A stretch of DNA of 64,000 bases, taken from Bacteroidia bacterium (lineage in GTDB: Bacteria > Bacteroidota > Ignavibacteria > SZUA-365). Made by a program: the position numbers and the translations under genes. The stretch covers positions 3,087,131 through 3,151,130 of the forward strand of contig JAOSJT010000001.1 of the NCBI GenBank assembly GCA_027493955.1, read 5' to 3'. A model generated the notes under the pieces. It made no database searches. It worked only from the letters and a program-made list of their open reading frames with translations, and was not told the origin of the DNA. Below, one piece after another: positions 6,146 to 63,524 of this stretch (position 1 is its first letter; each line of letters opens with the position of its first letter).

Positions 6146-7209
6146 GAGAACGGGTGGGTTGCGCGTGTCCCCCAACTGACGTTGCGGGTTAGAGGAAGTG
6201 TCGCCCTTCGGGCCAGGAGAACGGGTGAGTTGCGCGAGTCCCCCAACTGACGTTGGGGGTTAGAGGAAGTGTCGTCCTTCGGACCAGGAGAACGGGTAAG
6301 TTGCGCGTGTCCCCAAGCTGACGTTGCGGGTTAGAGGAAGTGTCGTCCTTCGGACTAGGAGAACGGGTGAGTTGCGCGTGTCCCCAAACTGACGTTGCGG
6401 GTCAGAGGAAGTGCCGCCCTTCGGACCAGGAGAACGGGTGGGTTGCGCGAGTCCCCTAACTGACGTTGGGGGTTAGAGGAAGTGTCGTCCTTCGGACTAG
6501 GAGAACGGGTAAGTTGCGCGTGTCCCCAAACTGACGTTGCGGGTTAGAGGAAGTGTCGTCCTTCGGGCCAGGAGAACGGGTGAGTTGCGCGTGTCCCCAA
6601 ACTGACGTTGCGGGTTAGAGGAAGTGCCGCCCTTCGGGCCAGGAGAACGGGTGGGTTGCGCGAGTCCCCAAACTGACGTTGCGGGTTAGAGGAAGTGCCG
6701 CCCTTCGGACCAGGAGAACGGGTAAGTTGCGCGAGTCCCCCAACTGACGTTAGGGGTTAGAGGAAGTGTCGCCCTTCGGACCAGGAGAACGGGTGGGTTG
6801 CGCGTGTCCCCCAACTGACGTTGGGGGTTAGAGGAAGTGTCGTCCTTCGGGCCAGGAGAACGGGTGAGTTGCGCGTGTCCCCCAACTGACGTTGGGGGTT
6901 AGAGGAAGTGTCGTCCTTCGGACTAGGAGAACGGGTGGGTTGCGCGTGTCTCCAAACTGACGTTGCGGGTTAGAGGAAGTGTCGCCCTTCGGACCAGGAG
7001 AACGGGTGGGTTGCGCGTGTCCTCCAACTGACGTTGGGGGTTAGAGGAAGTGCCGCCCTTCAGGCCAGGAGAACGGGTGGGTTGCGCGAGTCCCCAAACT
7101 GACGTTGGGGGTTAGAGGAAGTGTCGTCCTTCGGGCCAGGAGAACGGGTGAGTTGCGCGTGTCCCCAAACTGACGTTGCGGGTCAGAGGAAGTGCCGTCC
7201 TTCGGACTC
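6146..7209. repeat. 15-copy tandem array of a 71-bp unit with two potential hairpins
   Basis: Units begin with gagaacgggt at 6146, 6217, 6288 and so on every 71 bp to 7140; fifteen copies, none with an insertion or deletion, the last ending at about 7209. Copies differ only at a limited set of positions: ggg/gag/aag after gggt, gcgtgt/gcgagt, and the two stems. Stem 1 is CCCCCAAC-tgac-GTTGGGGG, perfect in copies 2, 10 and 11, with one to a few mismatches or a wobble in the others. Stem 2 is GCCC-ttc-GGGC or GTCC-ttc-GGAC, a paired change in several copies. Since 71 is not a multiple of 3 and stops occur in all frames, it is non-coding. There are no spacer-like unique segments, so it is not CRISPR. 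From 5530 to 7250 there is no gene. Confidence 0.95.
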
Positions 7210-7263
7210 TTCACCCTTCACCCTTTACCCTTCACCCTTTACCCTTCTCTCTACTCTTTACTC
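7208..7263. repeat. cttcacccttta minisatellite at the asnB 3' end
   Basis: Variants of cttcaccctttaccc follow directly on the 71-bp array and run into the last codons of asnB. The complementary motif ggtaaagggtgaaggg occurs at 61637-61671. Confidence 0.7.
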
Positions 7264-9107
7264 ATCCGATCCGCCAACACATACGCCCACCTCCTCTCCC
7301 AATTCGCGCGGACAAGCGTGGGTACACGCTTCCATGTGTCGATGCGCTCGTCTTGCTCCAGCCAATGACGGATGGGAACCTGAAAACCGGTTTTCCGTCG
7401 GTCGAGCAATTGCTGTGGTATGGGACGTGACGGACTCATCGCCAGCAGGCGCTTGCGATGCGTCAGCGCCAGGGTGTGCATGAGTGGCGCAAGGCGACGC
7501 AGCAGCTCGATGTCCACCAGCGGAACGCGAATTTCGATGGAATGCGCCATGCCCGCCCAGTCCGAATCGCGTAAAAGCTGATTTTTCATATACAGGCCCG
7601 CCTCCATCGCCGCGATACGTCCGTACGGTGTAACAGGATCCGGAGTCATTGCATCGCCGATCAGACCCATGATGTCCATATCGTGCAACCCGGCTTCCGC
7701 CCGGTCAACACCGAGCAACTCCGGCAGCTCCCAGGGCATGAAGAGTCCGCGACGCAGGTACCACGCACCCGGATAACTGTGTCCGTATTTCAGAGCACCG
7801 GCGACTTTCGGACTGCGCTCCGAATGCCCGGAAAGCAAAGACGCATACACACTCTGAAAGCCCTGCCCAAGCCAGGGGAGGCGCCTCGCAAAGCCAAATT
7901 TCCGTACCCACTCCGGCACATCCACAAAGGTGTTGTAGCCCGCGAAGAGTTCGTCTCCGCCCAGACCCGACAGCGCCACTTTCAAACCGTTCTCTCGTGC
8001 GGCTTTACTGACATAGTAGGTGTTGATGCCGTCAATGCTGGGTTGATCCATGACTGCGAGTATATGGTCGAGATCGCCGGAAAATTCCTGCGCAGTCAGC
8101 ATGCGCGTGCGGTGATCCGTACCGTAGTGACGCGCAACGTCTTCCGCCAGCGGCGCCTCGTCGTCGTGCCGGCCGCGAAATTCCTCGAACGCCAGCGTCA
8201 CCGTGCGCAAATCCTCTATGCCCGCATCACGCACCAATCCGACGAGAGTGCCCGAGTCAATCCCAGCGGAGAGAAACGCCCCCACCGGCACATCCGCGAT
8301 CATATGATGCGCCACCGAATCCCGCAACGCCTCACGAATGGTCTCTTCTTCCAACAGAGGGGCCGGGGGTGAGGTCTTCCCCCCCTCTCCTCTCAGGAGA
8401 GGGGCCGCCTCGGCCAACATCCCCGCAATGGAGCCGTACTCCACAGGTCCTTTGACTCCGGAACCATCCACGCGCAGCCAGTGTCCTGCCGGGAGAGCGC
8501 GAACAGCACGATAGATGCTCCGTGGTTCCGGCACGGAGCCCAGCATCAGAAAGGCGCACAGCGAACCCTCGTCAACGCGCGCATCCACTGCCCCGCCCGC
8601 CAACAGTGCCTTTACCTGCGATGCCATGCGAATGCAGCCGCCGTCGTCCGCGTAATACAGCGGTTTGATGCCGTACGGATCGCGCGCCGCAAAGAGCTGT
8701 TTCCTCTCATGGTCCCACAGCGCGAAGGCGAACATCCCCCGCAACATGGGCAACATGTCCGCGCCATGTCGTGCATAGAGGCCCATGAGCACTTCCGTAT
8801 CCGTCTCCGACCGGAGCGACCATCCGTCCCGCAGCAGCGTCTCCCGCAGCGGACGATAATTGTAAATTTCGCCGTTAAAGGTAATGCTGTACCGCCCGTC
8901 CACCGAGTGCATCGGCTGCGCACCGCGGTCCGACAGGTCAATGATGGACAGCCGCCGATGCCCGAAACCCACGCGGCCGTCGTCGGACACCCATTCGCCG
9001 AAGCCGTCCGGCCCGCGGGCGTGCATGTGGTCGCGCGTGGCGCGGAGTTCCGCGAGGTCCACCGTAAGAGAGCTGTTATAGTGAAAAATCGAATTGAAGC
9101 CGCACAT
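7251..9107 (-). CDS. asnB: Asparagine synthetase-type glutamine amidotransferase
   Basis: 618 aa. The N-terminal class II glutaminase domain (about 1-215) starts with the nucleophile Cys2 (MCGFNSIF) and shows HRRLSIIDLSDRGAQPM, FNGEIYNY and RGMFAFALWD. The ATP-PPi synthetase domain (about 255-600) has ADVPVGAFLSAGIDSGTL, where the PP-loop reads SAGIDS rather than the usual SGGxDS, and SGLGGDELFAGY. In polysaccharide loci such enzymes often amidate uronic acids, which would fit the nearby ugd; plain asparagine synthesis is the alternative. Residues about 235-251, between the two domains, are encoded by an inserted GC-rich palindromic repeat (APLLRGEGGKTSPPAPLL) that keeps the frame. Confidence 0.9.
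   Translation of the reverse strand: MCGFNSIFHYNSSLTVDLAELRATRDHMHARGPDGFGEWVSDDGRVGFGHRRLSIIDLSDRGAQPMHSVDGRYSITFNGEIYNYRPLRETLLRDGWSLRSETDTEVLMGLYARHGADMLPMLRGMFAFALWDHERKQLFAARDPYGIKPLYYADDGGCIRMASQVKALLAGGAVDARVDEGSLCAFLMLGSVPEPRSIYRAVRALPAGHWLRVDGSGVKGPVEYGSIAGMLAEAAPLLRGEGGKTSPPAPLLEEETIREALRDSVAHHMIADVPVGAFLSAGIDSGTLVGLVRDAGIEDLRTVTLAFEEFRGRHDDEAPLAEDVARHYGTDHRTRMLTAQEFSGDLDHILAVMDQPSIDGINTYYVSKAARENGLKVALSGLGGDELFAGYNTFVDVPEWVRKFGFARRLPWLGQGFQSVYASLLSGHSERSPKVAGALKYGHSYPGAWYLRRGLFMPWELPELLGVDRAEAGLHDMDIMGLIGDAMTPDPVTPYGRIAAMEAGLYMKNQLLRDSDWAGMAHSIEIRVPLVDIELLRRLAPLMHTLALTHRKRLLAMSPSRPIPQQLLDRRKTGFQVPIRHWLEQDERIDTWKRVPTLVRANWERRWAYVLADRMSKE
8356..8405. repeat. GC-rich palindromic repeat inserted inside asnB
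   Basis: Plus-strand gaggggccgggggtgagg followed by the palindrome cccctctcctctcaggagagggg. The same family lies in fcl (18832-18881), before wzi (25705-25790), at the DUF559 3' end (26219-26302) and in the aminotransferase (27845-27915). Here it adds about 17 codons in frame in the linker between the glutaminase and synthetase domains. Confidence 0.85.
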
Positions 9108-24045: not shown

Positions 24046-25704
24046 TCACCAAAGCCCGTAGGCGGCTCGGAGAGAAATGGTGAGGCCTTCGGGCTCGACA
24101 GAGGTTTTGTACCCTTCGCCAGGCTGTATGGCGACGTGGCGGACTGTCGCGACGGCGTACAGATCGTGCAGCGGCATCCAACGTATACGCAGCTCGAGAT
24201 TGCGCTGCGAGTATTCATGACCATAGAGAAAGGCCGGTTGGGTTCGGGGCCCGGCGGGGAGGAACATGTCGCTTTGTCCATAGCGCGCGAAGCTGACGGC
24301 ACCCGTCACATCAACGGCGCGCAGAGGATGGACGGTATGCGAGAGGAAGAGAATATCGGCGTTTGCGCCGATCCAGTGTCCGAGTACGACATTGTGCGAA
24401 CTGTAGCGCTGTACCGGCTTGGGATTGGTGTACACATACGGATACACACGGGAAAATTCCACGCGCGTCTCGCTGGCCAGAGGCAGCCAATGGGTATATG
24501 CGTCGGTCAGAAGCCCCCCCACGGTGTACGCTACATGATAATCGAAGCCGGTCTTGTCCGAGGCCATAATCTTGCTGTAATCCAGCTCATCGATGTAGCC
24601 GGTACCGTACACTATGACGGAGGGCAAGGCCCTCCAACGAAGGTCCGCGAAGAGCTGCGCATTCCCCGTTGTCGCGCGTGTCCAGCGATCGGCGGCGCGA
24701 AAGGGTAACACGGGCAGCAGGAAGAGCGGATTCACTGAACCGCCGTTGTACACGATGGACTCACCCAGCGCCACCTGCAGAGAAGGCATGACCCGGGCAG
24801 TAATGGCGTGCGCAGCGAAGAACTTATTTTCAAAGTACTGCAATCCCTCCACCGCACCCGGACCGGTAAAGTTGATATACGCCTCCAGTGTATCCGAAAA
24901 TAACCAGCCGTGCATATAATCCAGACGCAGCCAGTCGGTGATGAGCACGTGCAGGTTCATCGCGGGAAAGGACGGCGCCTTGTCCGAGAGAATGACCGCT
25001 CCCGTTCTCCCGCTTCCCCACCAAAGATCGGCTTTTTGCAACCCCAATCGCAGCCAGGGGAGGGAAAAAGTGAATTGCCCCTCCGCCACCTCCCAGTCGT
25101 ATCGGTCCACATCCTTCGACGGACCCTTCACTATGCCTTGCTCCGGCACGCGCCGCGCTCCGGCGTCATAGGGTATACCCCTGCGCCCATTGTCATACCA
25201 GCGCAGCGACGCCCCGAGATACTCCGACGCATAGCCCATGGCACGAATGCCGAACGCGCGCGTAAATACATTCTCCGCATCCTGCCGCAGAGCATAGCCC
25301 GCGCCGAAGACGATGTCGGCCGAGAGGAAACCGTGCGCGGGTCGCTCTCCGCGGAGGCGCAAAACATTCAAACGCTCATCGGACGGCTCCTCCGTACCGC
25401 TGCCGGAACGCGCCAGTCGTAAAAGTTCCTCGGCATACTCGGCGCGGTACCAAGAGAGCTCCATACGGTCATATTCCGTCAGCATCGCAGCGGAACGAGA
25501 GAGGGAATCCAGCAGAGCCGCTATTTCCATTCTCGGCAGGGCCCGGACAAATTGCGGCAACGCGTACCCGTATCGCGCTTCGATGCGGTCCAGGTAATCG
25601 TAGACCGGTGATCGCAGGGGTTCGTAGACGGTTTGGGCGTGGGCGGAGGAGAGGAGAGAGAAGAGTGAAAGAAGTAAAACACAGTGCAGGACCCCAGGCC
25701 TCAC
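24046..25704 (-). CDS. Wzi-like capsule assembly outer-membrane beta-barrel protein
   Basis: 552 aa, GTG start at 25704. Signal peptide LHCVLLLSLFSLLSSAHAQ. The mature part has an N-terminal helical segment and then many alternating, aromatic-rich strands ending in the Trp-containing ISLRAAYGLW, as expected for an outer-membrane barrel. Wzi-family landmarks include LGLQKADLWWGSGRTGAVI, PSFPAMNLHVLITDWLRL and YNGGSVNPLFLLPVLPF. Wzi proteins help attach or organise capsule at the surface. The GTG start lies inside a repeat-derived ggggtgagtgagg, so the repeat may have replaced the original start region; no better start is present before residue 58. Confidence 0.8.
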   Translation of the reverse strand: MRPGVLHCVLLLSLFSLLSSAHAQTVYEPLRSPVYDYLDRIEARYGYALPQFVRALPRMEIAALLDSLSRSAAMLTEYDRMELSWYRAEYAEELLRLARSGSGTEEPSDERLNVLRLRGERPAHGFLSADIVFGAGYALRQDAENVFTRAFGIRAMGYASEYLGASLRWYDNGRRGIPYDAGARRVPEQGIVKGPSKDVDRYDWEVAEGQFTFSLPWLRLGLQKADLWWGSGRTGAVILSDKAPSFPAMNLHVLITDWLRLDYMHGWLFSDTLEAYINFTGPGAVEGLQYFENKFFAAHAITARVMPSLQVALGESIVYNGGSVNPLFLLPVLPFRAADRWTRATTGNAQLFADLRWRALPSVIVYGTGYIDELDYSKIMASDKTGFDYHVAYTVGGLLTDAYTHWLPLASETRVEFSRVYPYVYTNPKPVQRYSSHNVVLGHWIGANADILFLSHTVHPLRAVDVTGAVSFARYGQSDMFLPAGPRTQPAFLYGHEYSQRNLELRIRWMPLHDLYAVATVRHVAIQPGEGYKTSVEPEGLTISLRAAYGLW

Positions 25705-25790
25705 TCACCCCGGCCCCCCTCTCCGCTTCCGGCATCTGATCTTTACGCCGCTGCGGAGAGGGGGAGGGGGAGGGGGAGGGAATTGACCGT
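25705..25790. repeat. GC-rich palindromic repeat between wzi and DUF559
   Basis: ccccggcccccctctccgc ... gcggagagggggagg: the two arms can pair across about 25 bases. It abuts the wzi start codon on one side and the DUF559 leader on the other, and belongs to the family inserted in asnB and fcl. Confidence 0.75.
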
Positions 25791-25857
25791 AGAATTTTCC
25801 GACTTTCCGTGCATCAGCAGAATTTCTAATTTTTTTAATATGTTTTTGGGAGAAAAC

Positions 25858-26316
25858 ATGCCAACAAAATTTCTCGCTCAAGTCGCACTACAACGTTGCA
25901 GGGAATTGCGACAACGTCAGACAAAGGCCGAATTCTTTCTGTGGGATTTGCTCAGGAACAGGAAGTGCGGTGGATTCAAATTCTATCGTCAGCGTGCAGT
26001 ATTCTATGAAGTGCCCGGAAAGAAATCGTTCTTTATTGCGGATTTCTATTCGCGCGAGCTGCTGCTCATCATCGAGTTGGATGGCCCTATTCATGAAAGC
26101 AGGAAGGAGTATGATACCGGCAGAGATGACGTATTACGTATGTACGGTTTGCGCGTGCTGAGATTTCAGAATGAGTTGGTGCTGGCTCATCCGGAGATGG
26201 TGTTGGAGGCGATTTTGGCCTCACCCCCGGCCTCTCCCCCGGCCTCTCCCCCGGCCTCTCCCCGGCCCCCTCTCCGCAAGCGGAGAGCGGGGGAGGAAAT
26301 CACAATAGTGTTTTAA
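25858..26316 (+). CDS. DUF559 (Vsr-like) endonuclease-fold protein
   Basis: 152 aa from the ATG at 25858, chosen for the gggaga ribosome-binding site 6 bases upstream; the frame is open further up but that part is repeat and AT-rich leader. Features: RQRQTKAEFFLWDLLRNRK, KFYRQRAVFYEVPGKKSFFIADFYSRELLLIIELDGPIHES and DDVLRMYGLRVLRFQNELV. The D ... E-x-D/H pattern is that of DUF559 proteins related to very-short-patch-repair nucleases. Function unknown. It is the only confident plus-strand gene here. Its last about 30 residues (ASPPASPPASPP, then RPPLRKRRAGEE) come from a palindromic repeat, and it overlaps the 3' end of the PglC-like gene by 17 bases. Confidence 0.8.
   Translation: MPTKFLAQVALQRCRELRQRQTKAEFFLWDLLRNRKCGGFKFYRQRAVFYEVPGKKSFFIADFYSRELLLIIELDGPIHESRKEYDTGRDDVLRMYGLRVLRFQNELVLAHPEMVLEAILASPPASPPASPPASPRPPLRKRRAGEEITIVF
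26219..26302. repeat. GC-rich palindromic repeat at the DUF559 3' end
   Basis: Four tandem cccccggcctct modules lead into ccccctctccgcaagcggag, a hairpin with gcaa at its tip. It encodes the C-terminal tail of DUF559 and ends at the converging PglC-like gene. Confidence 0.8.
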
Positions 26317-26872
26317 GTACCACCATCATATTTGAGCGGACGGTAGCGCTTTGACAATATGCGAGATCGATTCGGAGCTTCTCGGGAAGTATCTGCTCGA
26401 TATATAATTTCTCGTGATTATCACCTGTCAGCAATGAATTTTCATTGCGGAAGGCGATCGATGCGGGGCTCGTCATACCGGGACGGTATTTCAGGATATC
26501 CCGCAGGTGTTCAGGATAGTGTTCGACAAAACGCGGATCCTCGGGGCGGGGACCAACGAGACTCATCTGGCCCTTGAGCACATTGATGAGCTGCGGCAAT
26601 TCGTCCAGCTTGCTCCGGCGCAAGAAACGTCCCACCGGGGTGATGCGCGTATCGCCGGCGCTGGTGATGCCGGAACCGATACGGTCGGCATCCGTGCGCA
26701 TGCTGCGGAATTTGTACAATGCGAATGGTACGCCATTCCTGCCCGTGCGCGTGGCCCTGTAGAGAACCGACCCGGGCGAGGTGAGCTTGATCCATACGGC
26801 GATAACGATAAATACCGGCGCAAGCAGTATCAGGCCCAGCGAAGATGCGAGAATGTCTATCAGGCGCTGCAT
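26300..26872 (-). CDS. Small monotopic phosphoglycosyl transferase (PglC/WbaP catalytic-domain family)
   Basis: 190 aa, ATG at 26872. One N-terminal re-entrant hydrophobic helix (SLGLILLAPVFIVIAVWIKL) precedes the catalytic domain. Motifs: GSVLYRATRTGRNG, ALYKFRSMRTDAD, TPVGRFLRRSKLDELPQ with the catalytic Asp-Glu pair, QMSLVGPRPED and YRPGMTSPASI. These enzymes move a sugar-1-phosphate, often diNAcBac or a hexose, to undecaprenyl phosphate. The next gene upstream is a (frameshifted) PglE-like aminotransferase and a PglF-like dehydratase is 5 kb downstream, so the donor is plausibly a UDP-amino-dideoxy sugar. Stop codon overlaps the convergent DUF559 gene. Confidence 0.9.
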   Translation of the reverse strand: MQRLIDILASSLGLILLAPVFIVIAVWIKLTSPGSVLYRATRTGRNGVPFALYKFRSMRTDADRIGSGITSAGDTRITPVGRFLRRSKLDELPQLINVLKGQMSLVGPRPEDPRFVEHYPEHLRDILKYRPGMTSPASIAFRNENSLLTGDNHEKLYIEQILPEKLRIDLAYCQSATVRSNMMVVLKTLL

Positions 26873-27573
26873 GCGGTGTACAATCAGGAGAGTATTCTAC
26901 AACCGCGCGCGACGCAGCATTTCTACAACCGATTCGGCGACATAAGCCATTTCTTCGTCTGTCAAACCCGGGTAAATCGGCAAGGACAGCAGCCGCGGCC
27001 AGAGTGACGCCGCGACGGGGAAGTCCTCCGGTTTGTAACCATAGCTCTCTACATAGTACGGATGCATGTGCAGGGGACGCCAATGCACGGAGCACAGCAC
27101 GCCGCGCTGTTTCATTTCTTCGATGAACTGCGCACGATCGATGCGCAGAAGGTCGAGGCGCAGTTTGATGACGTAGAGGTGATGCGCGTGCAGAAGCGCG
27201 GAATTCTGCGGCAGCGTTTCCACTTCCTCCACATCGGCGAAGGCGTCGTCGTAGAAGGACGCGATGCGAGCGCGTTCAAGACGGAATTGCTCCGCCTTCG
27301 CCAGTTGCGAGAGTCCCAGCGCCGCCGCCACGTCCGTCATATTGTATTTGAAACCTGGAGCGACGATGTGATAATCCCAACTTCCGTCGGCGGTAAAGCG
27401 TTTCCAGGCATCGCGATTCATGCCATGCAGCGACATCAGCCGCATGCGCGCGGCCAACTCCGCATCCGCCGTTACCGCCATGCCACCCTCCCCTGTGGTG
27501 ATGGTCTTGTTGGCGTAGAAGCTGAAGCAGGACACTTTTGATGTATTGTTTCCGACGTAATGTATGGGATTGC

Positions 27574-27720
27574 TGAGAGGCGAAGAGCGGTGAGCGGGAG
27601 GCGTAGCGCGCAGCACGGAGCGCGTAGCGTTCTCAGATTCTGCTGTTTCGCCGGTATCCGCATGGTCTGTACGGGAAGTTGGCGCTACGCGCTCTGCGCT
27701 TTGCGCTACGCTCCCTCTCC
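27574..27720. repeat. gcgctacgc inverted-repeat element, copy 3, inside the aminotransferase
   Basis: ggcgtagcgcgcagcacggagcg and gcgtagcgttctcaga on the left, ggcgctacgcgctctgcgc and gcgctacgctccctctcc on the right: the same order of motifs as at 19501 and 20070. It is translated in frame as about 50 Ser/Ala/Arg/Thr-rich residues between the conserved HAF and CFSF blocks. Confidence 0.75.
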
Positions 27721-27844
27721 ACCCGGCCGGGAATGCGTGCGCGGCATCTTCGATGACCTCCGCCCCAACTTCGCTGGCGACAGCGGTAATCCCCTCGAGA
27801 TCGCACGGCCGTCCGCCGTAGTGGACGGGGATGATTGCGGAGAA

Positions 27845-27915
27845 ACGGCCCTCACCCCGGCCCCTCTGCCCTCACCCCCGGCCCCTCTCCCGGTAGGGAG
27901 AGGGGAGGAGGAGGG
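27845..27915. repeat. GC-rich palindromic repeat (two units) with the frameshift site
   Basis: Plus strand: ccctcaccccggcccctctg, then ccctcacccccggcccctct, then cccggtagggagaggggagg. Two near-identical units differ in the C tract (4 versus 5); this one-base difference breaks the aminotransferase frame. Confidence 0.85.
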
Positions 27916-28499
27916 GTCTTGGGATATAGCTGCGCGGATGGTCGTAGGGGTGATGCACAGGGTGTCGGGATCGACGTCGCAGAGGATGGGGATGGCATCG
28001 AAGTAGCGGACGACTTCGGCGGTGGCGGCGAAGGTCATGGTGGGGACAAGGACTCGGTCGCCGCGTTTGAGGCCGATGGCTTCAAGCGCGAGATGCAAGG
28101 CCGCTGTGCAGGAGTTGAGGGCCACGGCATGGAGCTCGGGGTTTCCGAGCGCGTTGACGAAGTCCTGCTCGAATTGCTTTACCTTGGGTCCCGTGGTAAG
28201 CCAGCCGGATTGGAGGCATTCCTCAATGCCAGCGAGGGCGTCGGGATCGGGGAGGAAACGGAAAAAGGGGATGTGCATGGTGTCAGTGTCGGAAAGTACG
28301 TCGGATGTTTCGCGCTATGGGATAGAGTCTCTCTGCGAGTTCGCGTCTCTGCGGCGCTTTTACCGACTTGTCTTGAAATGTTGAGCACGAAGATGCAATG
28401 GCGCTCTGGATGTTCTTTGATCTGTTTATCTCGAAATGCTGTCGTGTTAACCTGATTACCGTACGCACCTCGTACCGTTATGCGTGCGGAGACACTGAT

Positions 28500-29192
28500 T
28501 CAGAGAGGACGGATGCTGCAGAGGTGGTGGGATTTCAAAAAAGGTATGCGCGCGAGCACGGGATAGAGCGCGTTGGTCAGGCGACCCAGCGAGCGCGCGA
28601 GGGGAGGTAAAAGCGTGAGGGTTTTGCACTCCAGGCGGGTTCCGGGAAACAGGGCGCGGATTTCCTGCAGGTTCAGGGCCCGGACAAAGGGATTACGCGG
28701 ATTGTTGTAGCGGAAATCGTACACAATGATGCTCCCCTGCGGTCGCAATACGCGCAAAGCCTCGCGAGCTATGGCCGATCGCGTTTTATACACGAGTATG
28801 GATGAGAGCACGGTGAAGAGCAACACGGTATGTACGCTCCCGTCGCCTAAGGGCAGACGTGAGCCCTCTGCCAGTGCATAGTGCATGGCCGGATAGCGCT
28901 CATGCGCCTGGTGAATGCGAACAGCATCGATATCCACACCGTATAATATCTCTTGCGGCAAACCCATCGTATGCAAGGTAGCGAGCACATTTCCGGCACC
29001 GCAGCCGATATCGAGAACAGGCGCGGGTGAGGCCCCCTGCGTTGCGGCGAGCAATTCTCGCAACGCGCCGTCGCGCTCCATGCCCATAGCGCGGTTACCC
29101 GCATTCGCGGAGGACCAGGAGCGCTGCTTGCGCGCGTCGAGACGATACGCGTCGTAGACCTCGCGTAGGCGTTGGAGCTCAGCCGCATTCAT
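28500..29192 (-). CDS. Class I SAM-dependent methyltransferase
   Basis: 230 aa from the ATG at 29192 (a GTG three codons upstream is open). The SAM-binding motif I is VLDIGCGAGNVLATL, followed by ILYGVDIDAVRIHQAHERYP (motif II acidic residue), then AEGSRLPLGDGSVHTVLLFTVL and LRVLRPQGSIIVYDFRYN. This is the Methyltransf_11 arrangement. Target unknown; in this setting probably a sugar hydroxyl or a carrier-linked glycan. About 100 bp separate it from the GT2 gene upstream and about 220 bp from the aminotransferase downstream. Confidence 0.85.
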   Translation of the reverse strand: MNAAELQRLREVYDAYRLDARKQRSWSSANAGNRAMGMERDGALRELLAATQGASPAPVLDIGCGAGNVLATLHTMGLPQEILYGVDIDAVRIHQAHERYPAMHYALAEGSRLPLGDGSVHTVLLFTVLSSILVYKTRSAIAREALRVLRPQGSIIVYDFRYNNPRNPFVRALNLQEIRALFPGTRLECKTLTLLPPLARSLGRLTNALYPVLARIPFLKSHHLCSIRPL

Positions 29193-29300
29193 ACGTCGCA
29201 CTCCATTATAACAGCATTTCTCGTGACGAAGGCAAGTTGCCCCGAAAGATGTTTCTCCACGTTTCCGATATGCCGCGCAGCGCGTAAACTCACGAAGCCC

Positions 29301-50982: not shown

Positions 50983-52212
50983 TTATTTTCGTGCGCTTTG
51001 TACTCTCGTCCGTCTACTGAGCATCGAATGAATTTCGTGCCTGTTTGCAAACGCCCGAGATATAACCTGCGAAATACAATTAATTTCATCACGACGTATA
51101 CTTGATCCATTTGGCAAGATCATAATGCATTTTGCCAGAAGCTCCGTTTCTTGTAATACTTCCCGCCTATGCTTTATTTGCTTCTTATACGGCTCCATTT
51201 GATGGCAACCGGGGTAAAAATAGCGCCGCGCCAGCACGTTTTCTGCATGCAGCACCTGTAATATTTCGTCTCTGGTAAGACCAACGATAGTTTCATCTAT
51301 TTCAACAACAACGTACTGATAATTACATTTTTCTCTTTCAGGGTATTCGATAATCCGGATGCCTGGCAGACTACTAAAACTTTTTTTATACGCAAGATAG
51401 TTTTTGCGATTGACTGATATGAAATCATCGATACTTTCCAGGTTCGCAATACCCATTGCAGCATGCACTTCGGACATTTTGGCGTTCAGCCCGAGGTCAA
51501 CGACGTTATCATATCCCGAAAAACCGAAATTCTTCATTAGTCTCAAGCGACCGGCGAGTTCTTCGCTGTTTGTCGCGATCGCTCCGCCCTCGAAGGTATT
51601 GAAAAATTTCGTTGCGTGGAAACTAAACACTTCCGCTTCTCCGAAGTTCCCGATCATGGTGCCATTGTAAGAACAACCGAAGGCATGCGCAGCATCGAAC
51701 AGAAGTTTGACATTCTTTCGTTTAGCGATTTCAATAAGCTCATCAACGGCACAAGGACGCCCCCATACGTGCACTCCAAGAATTCCTGAAGTGGCTGGGC
51801 CGATGAGTTCTGTGACTTTACCGGGGTCAAGATTGTGCGTTTCCGGATCTATGTCGCAGAATACTGGCGTAATACCCTGCCACTGCAGTGCATGTGCTGT
51901 CGCCACGAATGTGAAGGACGGAACGATAACTTCGCCCTTCAATTCCAACGCTTTAATCAGTATTTCAAGTCCAACGGTCGCGTTGGAAACGACGACACAA
52001 TGTTTGACCTGGAGGTACTCCGCTATGCGCTTCTCGAACTCCTGCGCGAGCGGGCCATTATTGGAGAGCCATTTCCGTTGGAAGATTCCATCCAGCAACT
52101 CGTCGAACCGATCACGGTTGCCAATGTTCGGCCGACCTACATGAAGTGCTTCTCTGAATGCTGGCCTGCCTCCAAATATCGCTAAGTTTCGGTCTTCTTC
52201 ACTGATGTTCAC
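50983..52212 (-). CDS. DegT/DnrJ/EryC1/StrS sugar aminotransferase
   Basis: 409 aa, GTG start at 52212 overlapping the acetyltransferase stop (GTGA). PLP enzyme that aminates a keto sugar nucleotide with glutamate. Motifs: KWLSNNGPLAQEFEKRIAEY, VVVSNATVGLEILIKAL, VPSFTFVATAHALQWQG, LLFDAAHAFGCSYNG (PLP-ring Asp) and FSFHATKFFNTFEGGAIATN with the Schiff-base Lys. It pairs with the PglD/NeuD-type acetyltransferase upstream; this gene order resembles VioA/VioB, which make dTDP-4-acetamido-4,6-dideoxyglucose. A 3-amino product (QdtB/FdtB type) is an alternative. Confidence 0.9.
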   Translation of the reverse strand: MNISEEDRNLAIFGGRPAFREALHVGRPNIGNRDRFDELLDGIFQRKWLSNNGPLAQEFEKRIAEYLQVKHCVVVSNATVGLEILIKALELKGEVIVPSFTFVATAHALQWQGITPVFCDIDPETHNLDPGKVTELIGPATSGILGVHVWGRPCAVDELIEIAKRKNVKLLFDAAHAFGCSYNGTMIGNFGEAEVFSFHATKFFNTFEGGAIATNSEELAGRLRLMKNFGFSGYDNVVDLGLNAKMSEVHAAMGIANLESIDDFISVNRKNYLAYKKSFSSLPGIRIIEYPEREKCNYQYVVVEIDETIVGLTRDEILQVLHAENVLARRYFYPGCHQMEPYKKQIKHRREVLQETELLAKCIMILPNGSSIRRDEINCISQVISRAFANRHEIHSMLSRRTRVQSARK

Positions 52213-56738: not shown

Positions 56739-57902
56739 CTATACGGTATTGAGCAGTATCCCGCGCACGGTATGGATGATTCTGTCCACATCGCCATCGC
56801 TGAGCTTTGGTGACAGCGGTATGCTCACCGTTTGCCTCCCGATATGCATGGCCTGCGGATACTGCTCCGGCAGCCAGCCATAGCGCTCGCGATAGTACGG
56901 ATGCTCGGGTATGCTGAGATAATGCACACCCACACCGATGCCCTCCTGCGTCATGCGGTCGAGAAAGCCGTCGCGCGAAATGCCGCAGCGCTGCTCGTCA
57001 ATCAGCAGGGTGAAGAGATGCAGGGCGTGCCGCGATGCGGGGTCAATAGGCGCGGGCAGGGTGACGGGCAAATCGGCGAAGGCCTCCATGTATCGTAGCC
57101 ATATCGCCTCGCGCCGTTGCCAATACTGCTCGATACGCTCGAGCTGATGCAAGCCGATGGCGGCCTGGAGATCCATCATATTGTACTTGAAGCCCGCCTC
57201 CAATACCTGATAGTGCTTGTAACCATCATCGCCGAAGCGCTTCCAGGCATCGCGCGACATGCCGTGCAAGCCCAGCATTTTGATACGGTCTATGTGCTCT
57301 TCGCGCCTGGCCAGCACCATTCCTCCCTCGCCCGTGGTGATATTCTTGGTGGCATAGAAGGAAAAGCAGGCGAAATCCCCGAAGCTGCCGGACTGCCGGC
57401 CATGCCAGGTGCTTTCGATGGCGTGCGCGCAATCCTCTATCACCATCAACTCATGCTCCTCGGCGAGCTTCATGATAGTAACCATATCGCAGCAGCGGCC
57501 GGCAAAATGCACGGGCATAATCGCCTTTGTCCGGGGCGTGATCGCTGCTTCAATGGCGGCAGCGGTGATGTTCATGCTCGCTTCGTCAACATCCACAAGC
57601 ACGGGAACAGCCCCGCTGTGAATAATGGCGTTGATGGTGGCGCAAAACGTCATCGGCGTGGTGATTACCTCGTCACCCGGTCCCACGCCTGCCGCAAGCA
57701 GACTGAGATGCAGTGCCGCCGTGCAGGAATGCAGCGCGGCCGCATACGAAGCACCCTTGTACTCCCGGAACATATCCTCGAAACGCGCGACCTTGGGACC
57801 GGTACCAAGCCAGGCGGAGCGGAGGGAAGAGATTATCTCATCGATCTCTTCAGATTCTATCCGTGGTTGGCCAAATACAATGAATTCTGGAGGATGTATC
57901 AA
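56739..57902 (-). CDS. DegT/DnrJ/EryC1/StrS sugar aminotransferase (intact paralogue)
   Basis: 387 aa, TTG start at 57902 (no other Met nearby). Motifs: AWLGTGPKVARFEDMF, SCTAALHLSLLAAGVG, TPMTFCATINAI, VIEDCAHAIESTWHG, CFSFYATKNITTGEGGMV with the PLP lysine, LHGMSRDAWKRFGDDG and FKYNMMDLQAAIGLHQL. It is the close, undamaged relative of the frameshifted gene at 26897 and shows where that gene's insertions lie. Substrate is probably a UDP-4-keto-6-deoxyhexosamine (PglE/PseC type) or a 3-keto uronic acid made by the WlbA-like enzyme upstream. Confidence 0.92.
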   Translation of the reverse strand: MIHPPEFIVFGQPRIESEEIDEIISSLRSAWLGTGPKVARFEDMFREYKGASYAAALHSCTAALHLSLLAAGVGPGDEVITTPMTFCATINAIIHSGAVPVLVDVDEASMNITAAAIEAAITPRTKAIMPVHFAGRCCDMVTIMKLAEEHELMVIEDCAHAIESTWHGRQSGSFGDFACFSFYATKNITTGEGGMVLARREEHIDRIKMLGLHGMSRDAWKRFGDDGYKHYQVLEAGFKYNMMDLQAAIGLHQLERIEQYWQRREAIWLRYMEAFADLPVTLPAPIDPASRHALHLFTLLIDEQRCGISRDGFLDRMTQEGIGVGVHYLSIPEHPYYRERYGWLPEQYPQAMHIGRQTVSIPLSPKLSDGDVDRIIHTVRGILLNTV

Positions 57903-61618: not shown

Positions 61619-61636
61619 TTGGGTTAGCGGTTGGGA

Positions 61637-61693
61637 AATGGTAAAGGGTAAAGGGTAAAGGGTGAAGGGATTTACGATTGACGATTTACGATT
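61637..61693. repeat. ggtaaagggtaaagg minisatellite plus gattgacgattta repeat at the wlbA-like 5' end
   Basis: Four 7-bp (gtaaagg-type) units, then gaagggatttacgattgacg and atttacgattc. The first part is the complement of the cttcaccctttaccc repeat at 7208-7263. It occupies the place where the start of the WlbA-like gene should be. Confidence 0.75.
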
Positions 61694-63473: not shown

Positions 63474-63524
63474 GTGGATTTACGATGGTGGATGGACGAT
63501 TGACGAATGACGATTGACGATTTG
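63474..63524. repeat. Degenerate gattgacgatttg repeat upstream of the ATPase gene
   Basis: tttacgatggtggatggacg, gattgacgaatgacg and gattgacgatttg: same family as 2503-2541. The ATPase promoter must lie in or beyond this repeat; none is obvious. Confidence 0.6.

Follow-up and report, generated by a model that had tools for sequence, protein, structure and literature searches.

The closest described counterparts of the element analyzed here are the intragenic REPs of the GTAG and CGTC superfamilies, some of which lie in frame, including in uvr, recB, and tRNA synthetase genes, and which sometimes occupy roughly equivalent positions in related species (PMC3733652). The CGTC superfamily is said to be without a transposase (PMC3733652). 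The element in our window (the whole stretch of 64,000 nucleotides that was analyzed) is likewise a short palindrome inside a gene, but it has no GTAG or CGTC foot and is linked to a DUF559 gene instead of a tyrosine transposase. Whereas REPs are high-copy and mostly extragenic, the window element has nine core matches in 5.24 Mb, eight of them in a single 58-kb stretch. As it has neither of the two tags nor a link to a RAYT, it is placed in neither REP superfamily.

A second point of comparison is provided by the REPIN/RAYT systems, in which an enzyme gene is likewise bracketed by palindromes and solo palindromes occur elsewhere. There, however, the enzyme is a Y1 HUH transposase, whereas DUF559 is a nuclease of the Vsr-like PD-(D/E)XK type, and the solo hairpins here lie in coding genes. 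Rickettsia palindromic elements (RPEs) are palindromes inserted in frame in proteins and are not known to be linked to a nuclease gene. Like RPEs, the window element lies inside protein genes, in frame in asnB and one base off in the aminotransferase; it is unrelated to them in sequence, and autonomous-looking palindrome-nuclease-palindrome units are present here. Homing endonucleases in inteins and introns similarly place a nuclease in frame in conserved genes, with related hosts sharing the insertion site (here metH, leuS, uvrC, and hsdR), but ten scanned hosts of nested DUF559 domains are without a Hint or intein domain; L161 and L208, outside that scan, are apparent exceptions (L numbers are our own labels).

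The titles and abstracts of one paper library held no report of palindromes around DUF559 or of its nesting within essential genes, and word searches of that library returned nothing closer than the intragenic REPs (PMC3733652). Since it regularly has palindromes on its flanks and sits in frame inside essential genes, DUF559 is a testable candidate for how one class of palindrome moves, and movement driven by it would also account for insertions resembling TPGPSPxRGEG in conserved bacterial proteins.

An aminotransferase gene in two frames

The element lies within an aminotransferase gene in a polysaccharide locus, with a methyltransferase on one side and a sugar transferase on the other. The features of this region are as follows.

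26897-28278, minus strand: DegT/DnrJ/EryC1/StrS (PseC-like) aminotransferase gene, in two frames, split at the palindromic element (PF01041, TIGR03588, frames, and invariant residues)
26299-26872, minus strand: sugar transferase (PF02397, Pfam), directly downstream of the aminotransferase
28500-29201, minus strand: methyltransferase, upstream of the aminotransferase (domain match)
27846-27915, unstranded: probable solo copy of a REP-like palindrome, situated in loop A, with a 10-bp stem (CCCCTCTCCC/GGGAGAGGGG) and a tandem-duplicated outer end
27848-27867, unstranded: shorter unit (20 nt) of the tandem pair at the outer end; its C4 run (27855-27858) marks the one-base offset
27868-27888, unstranded: longer unit (21 nt) of the same pair, containing the C5 run (27875-27879)
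about 27575-27722, minus strand: second insert, in loop B, unrelated to that in loop A, made of inverted GCnnAGC heptamer arrays with the potential for a long hairpin (hairpin, inverted repeat, and alignment)

The N-terminal frame (minus strand, frame 0) begins with the ATG at 28278 and stays open as far as a stop at 27708, the C-terminal frame is open from just past a stop at 27874 to 26899, and the two overlap by more than 150 nt. Both halves match PF01041 over adjacent parts of the profile (8-111 in the N part and 159-359 in the C part), and homology places the one-base offset between 27874 and about 27846. An earlier note on this DNA had put a change of frame at the repeat, and the frames together with the PF01041 matches locate the offset there. 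It had also stated that one added base would restore an open frame of about 460 codons, which agrees with the length of the gene: 26897-28278 is 1,382 nt, and one further base gives 460 codons and a stop.

In a comparison with 45 relatives, every one of the 57 family-invariant columns is retained, counting both halves. The DegT/PseC family motifs and the PLP lysine are present, the SFYANK motif is kept, and the C part comprises 324 open codons without a further lesion. TIGR03588 (PseC) is the top NCBIfam model for the C half, with a score far under the model cut-off, and consequently the substrate of the aminotransferase is not fixed by this match. The assembled sequence does not allow the complete enzyme to be made, which reflects either a frameshift of recent date or an error of the consensus within a GC-rich hairpin.

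Two more DegT-family aminotransferase matches lie in the same locus, at about 51175-51648 and 56766-57377 of the window, and are possible back-ups. The latter is 41% identical to the frame-offset aminotransferase.

The repeat units as the end of a palindrome

The earlier note had described two adjacent repeat units with homopolymer tracts of five and four, and these are present as the C5 and C4 runs listed above. Tandem Repeats Finder reports them as one array at 27848-27888 (period 21, 2.0 copies, 95% matches, and 4% indels). That description was right as far as it went, but it overlooked the larger REP-like palindrome at 27848-27915 of which the two units form the end, the second insert in loop B, and the other palindrome copies in the window. 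The element ends in GGCCTCACCCCC and GGGGAGG and is without a GTAG or CGTC end tag; the sole GTAG within it lies inside the hairpin loop, and the other copies have no GTAG. Taken as a whole, 27846-27915 folds no better than shuffled sequences (z -0.5), and no Rfam family matches at or near its gathering score within 25600-28400. The tandem-duplicated outer end is also found at both DUF559 copies of the source genome, and two units can therefore be regarded as typical of the element and not as a dedicated switch.

The position of the insert is explained by tolerance, as loops A and B, whose positions derive from sequence alignment, are the two places where the enzyme accepts extra residues. The invariant columns delimit 56 segments, of which only two differ by at least eight residues among the 45 relatives, namely those that hold the inserts. 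A similar palindrome (CCCTCCCCCGGCCCCTCCCGCAAGCGGGAGGGGAGG) occurs in frame in loop A of a DegT enzyme of L017, which belongs to another genus, and is missing from its congener L011. Sequence 27846-27915 is probably a solo palindromic element in a permissive loop, and it resembles in kind the palindromes on either side of DUF559.

Palindrome copies in the source genome

The source genome is a single complete contig of 5,237,942 bases. Within the window, the further features that carry the palindrome are as follows.

25684-26316, plus strand: DUF559 (Vsr-like nuclease) gene, copy 1, with a likely start codon at 25858 (PF04480, E 1.8e-27)
25700-25780, unstranded: left-hand palindrome of DUF559 copy 1 (fold z -3.2)
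26216-26298, unstranded: right-hand palindrome of DUF559 copy 1, its outer end made of tandem 12-nt units
7251-9107, minus strand: asnB-like asparagine synthase gene (618 aa) with a palindromic element inside it (ORF similarity and reading)
8356-8405, unstranded: solo palindromic element inside asnB, with the frame kept

DUF559 copy 1, bracketed by the palindrome, lies 1.5 kb from the aminotransferase element. Copy 2 lies 2.4 kb beyond the end of the window, and its flanking palindromes are clean inverted copies. With up to one mismatch allowed, the core motif is found at nine places in the genome, eight of which fall within a 58-kb stretch (3,095-3,154 kb) and correspond to both DUF559 genes, asnB, the aminotransferase, and an intergenic tail. 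Both solo copies that carry a hairpin lie within coding genes. In the in-frame test, the elements of asnB and L017 keep the frame, and that of the aminotransferase is one base off. Confinement of the copies to 58 kb fits local spread, and it also fits acquisition of a whole polysaccharide island that brought its repeats along, since the GC content of the window is lower and more variable (0.45-0.57) than that of other stretches of the genome (mostly 0.55-0.58).

ARAGORN calls a tRNA-Leu (gag) at 8335-8422, inside asnB and over the palindrome, and this call was rejected as a probable false positive. The only Y1 transposase (RAYT) gene of the genome, at 4,215,650 (L291), is bracketed by a different repeat family. 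Fifteen 71-nt tandem units at 6146-7207 of the window carry GAGGAAGTGTCGTCCTxCGGA, which is the repeat that brackets this RAYT gene (4.2157 Mb).

Bracketing of DUF559 across the phylum

Flanking hairpins were scored by one rule for all families, which considers 300 bp beyond the domain and accepts a stem of at least 9 with a loop of 3 to 12. Among 59 DUF559 loci, which are top-scoring HMM matches and not a random sample, a hairpin is present on at least one side in 43 and on both sides in 21, and in 34 the two sides have an arm core in common; about a quarter are without a strong flanking hairpin. Many of the genomes are draft assemblies. Distal controls were mostly intragenic, and for this reason ParE and RAYT were added as comparison families. 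Under the same rule, ParE shows a hairpin on at least one side in 2 of 20 loci and none with hairpins on both sides or with a shared arm core, and RAYT shows a hairpin on at least one side in 10 of 24, on both sides in 3, and a shared arm core in 8. Further DUF559 loci, mostly from other classes and overlapping in part with the 59, have hairpins in 10/20 and 9/20 flanks versus 0/38 distal controls.

The association is also seen at the level of genomes. Of 294 genomes surveyed in the class, 171 have DUF559, and 56 of these carry the motif CTCACCCCNNNCCCCTCTCC; among the 123 that do not have DUF559, 8 carry it (odds ratio 7, a value that ignores phylogeny and assembly quality); the motif varies, so these presence counts are lower bounds. 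Eight genomes accordingly have the motif and no DUF559.

DUF559 nested in conserved genes

In relatives, the DUF559 domain is also found inside other proteins. At least 27 of the matches listed lie in open frames of at least 800 residues, and DUF559 is nested in frame, together with translations of the palindrome such as TPGPSPxRGEG on its flanks, in uvrC, metH, leuS, hsdM, GH2, and methylase genes. Pfam scans of ten such loci place the nested domain within the RNase H domain of UvrC and between the two B12-binding domains of MetH, as well as in HsdM, a GH2 enzyme, DNA methylases, and a type ISP enzyme. In LeuRS it lies in the editing domain at profile position 20-21 in L200, L294, and L296, which come from different classes of the phylum, and it is nested in metH in L148, L181, L184, L185, and L198. 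Nesting at the same site thus recurs in metH and leuS, for which common descent is an alternative to recurrent insertion. The Pfam scan detects no Hint or intein domain in the ten nested hosts, and their frames are open throughout. In L161 and L208, a reading of the translations suggests that DUF559 lies within a Hint domain of intein-like character, and this connects the nuclease with homing.

A candidate mobile element

The palindromes that bracket DUF559 and its in-frame nesting point to an undescribed small mobile element, and the solo palindrome is associated with, and perhaps mobilized by, DUF559. The anatomy of the element, the bracketing of DUF559, its nesting in relatives, and the confinement of the copies in the source genome are observations, whereas we infer both that DUF559 is the mover of these palindromes and the manner in which it moves them. 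In the likeliest and most economical reading, the palindrome-DUF559-palindrome arrangement is the small mobile unit and solo palindromes are its nuclease-less form. Insertion probably proceeds by way of a break or nick made by the nuclease and subsequent repair, and in-frame copies would persist where the host protein tolerates the added residues. In the aminotransferase element, the outer end is duplicated in tandem, and one copy, as assembled, lacks a base. On a wider scale, we tentatively propose, at less than an even chance, that DUF559 mobilizes widespread REP-like palindromes that have no known transposase, that the unit nests in frame and unspliced in essential proteins (LeuRS, UvrC, MetH, and restriction-modification subunits), and that the solo elements of the aminotransferase and asnB are its miniature form.

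It could instead be supposed that the palindromes are REPs mobilized by a RAYT and that their closeness to DUF559 is incidental, given that REPs inside genes have been described (PMC3733652) and that RAYT genes are frequent in this class. This is unlikely: by the same measure DUF559 is bracketed more often than RAYT, and the RAYT of the source genome has flanking repeats of its own that differ from the window palindrome, on which ground it was rejected as the mobilizer.

Origin of the frame offset

For the one-base offset in the aminotransferase, a new single-base lesion is about as likely as an error of the consensus in the GC-rich hairpin. According to the former, which comes close to an even chance, a real and recent frameshift in the duplicated end has inactivated the gene, and the other aminotransferases of the locus may compensate. 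The genome is complete in a single contig, and a comparison with one same-family genome finds no frameshift in 42 orthologous ORFs (14,028 aligned residues; internal stops in this comparison were ascribed, by assumption, mainly to antisense ORFs), from which it follows that the assembly is not generally frameshifted. Aminotransferases of the same family lie nearby, including the 41% identical match at about 56766-57377, although their redundancy is putative. The rest of the gene, however, is free of decay, which argues against inactivation.

Conversely, the living genome may have no offset, in which case the aminotransferase would be intact with two in-frame inserts and nothing would be switched or broken. 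This is a substantial possibility, if somewhat short of even. All 57 invariant residues are in place and the C part has no other lesion, the offset falls in a GC-rich hairpin with adjoining near-identical units, and all other inserts examined in loops A and B stay in frame, as does the asnB element. The absence of frameshifts from the 42 orthologous ORFs speaks against an error-ridden assembly and, to that extent, against this explanation.

The earlier note, which also allowed for a fresh break or an assembly error, had proposed slipped-strand phase variation at the G tract. Its assignment of the gene to a surface-glycan locus stands, but the tract belongs to the regular make-up of a palindromic element and is probably no dedicated switch. 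In the homopolymer phase variation of Neisseria and Campylobacter, a glycan gene likewise has a frame offset at a mononucleotide run, but the tracts there are of at least 8 nt, compared with 4 to 5 here. In Neisseria meningitidis, tracts of at least 8 are predominantly variable, and the one variable C5/C6 case is below the cut-off of that study (PMC5084427). Runs of the present length are ubiquitous, with 2,972 C4/G4 and 527 C5/G5 runs in 864 kb of the source genome (the window and 800 kb sampled as stretches), and both this background and the tract length, short of the roughly 7 to 8 nt or more needed for frequent slippage, led us to reject a homopolymer switch. It is conceivable that the near-identical tandem units within a glycan gene shift the frame in another way, by loss of a unit; yet the duplicated ends occur beside DUF559 genes too, and a switch of the enzyme, and hence of the surface glycan, by G4/G5 slippage or by gain or loss of a 20/21-nt unit is very unlikely. 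If true, it would add merely one further phase-variable glycan gene. Weaker still, and highly improbable, is programmed -1 frameshifting or transcriptional slippage that would yield some full-length enzyme from the sequence as assembled, for which the frame overlap and a strong hairpin close to the junction might be cited: inspection of the junction codons (GCC GGG GTG AGG) finds no X XXY YYZ slippery heptamer, on which ground programmed frameshifting was rejected, and runs of 4 to 5 nt are too short for transcriptional slippage.

Tandem arrays in loop B

The second insert of the aminotransferase, in loop B, has a hairpin (z -3.5), an inverted repeat, and a period of 7, and it is open in the aminotransferase frame. 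In-frame loop B inserts are found in L004, L061, L067, L077, L082, and L089, of which L061 also has an insert in loop A, and the relatives that carry inserts in these loops span several phyla. The inserts of the relatives are mostly period-7 arrays, although L004 has a unit of 8 nt; in L075, loop B is long but shows no clear period. As the sequences differ among the relatives, the inserts were probably acquired independently. The period-7/8 arrays of loop B constitute a second kind of intragenic element. In several phyla, these arrays are often G-rich on the left and C-rich on the right, as if their ends were inverted. Short 7- and 8-nt tandem arrays (GTGAAAGG, CTTCACC, and GATTTAC) are also numerous in the window itself, at 2582-2913, 7209-7247, 61636-61693, and 63474-63522.
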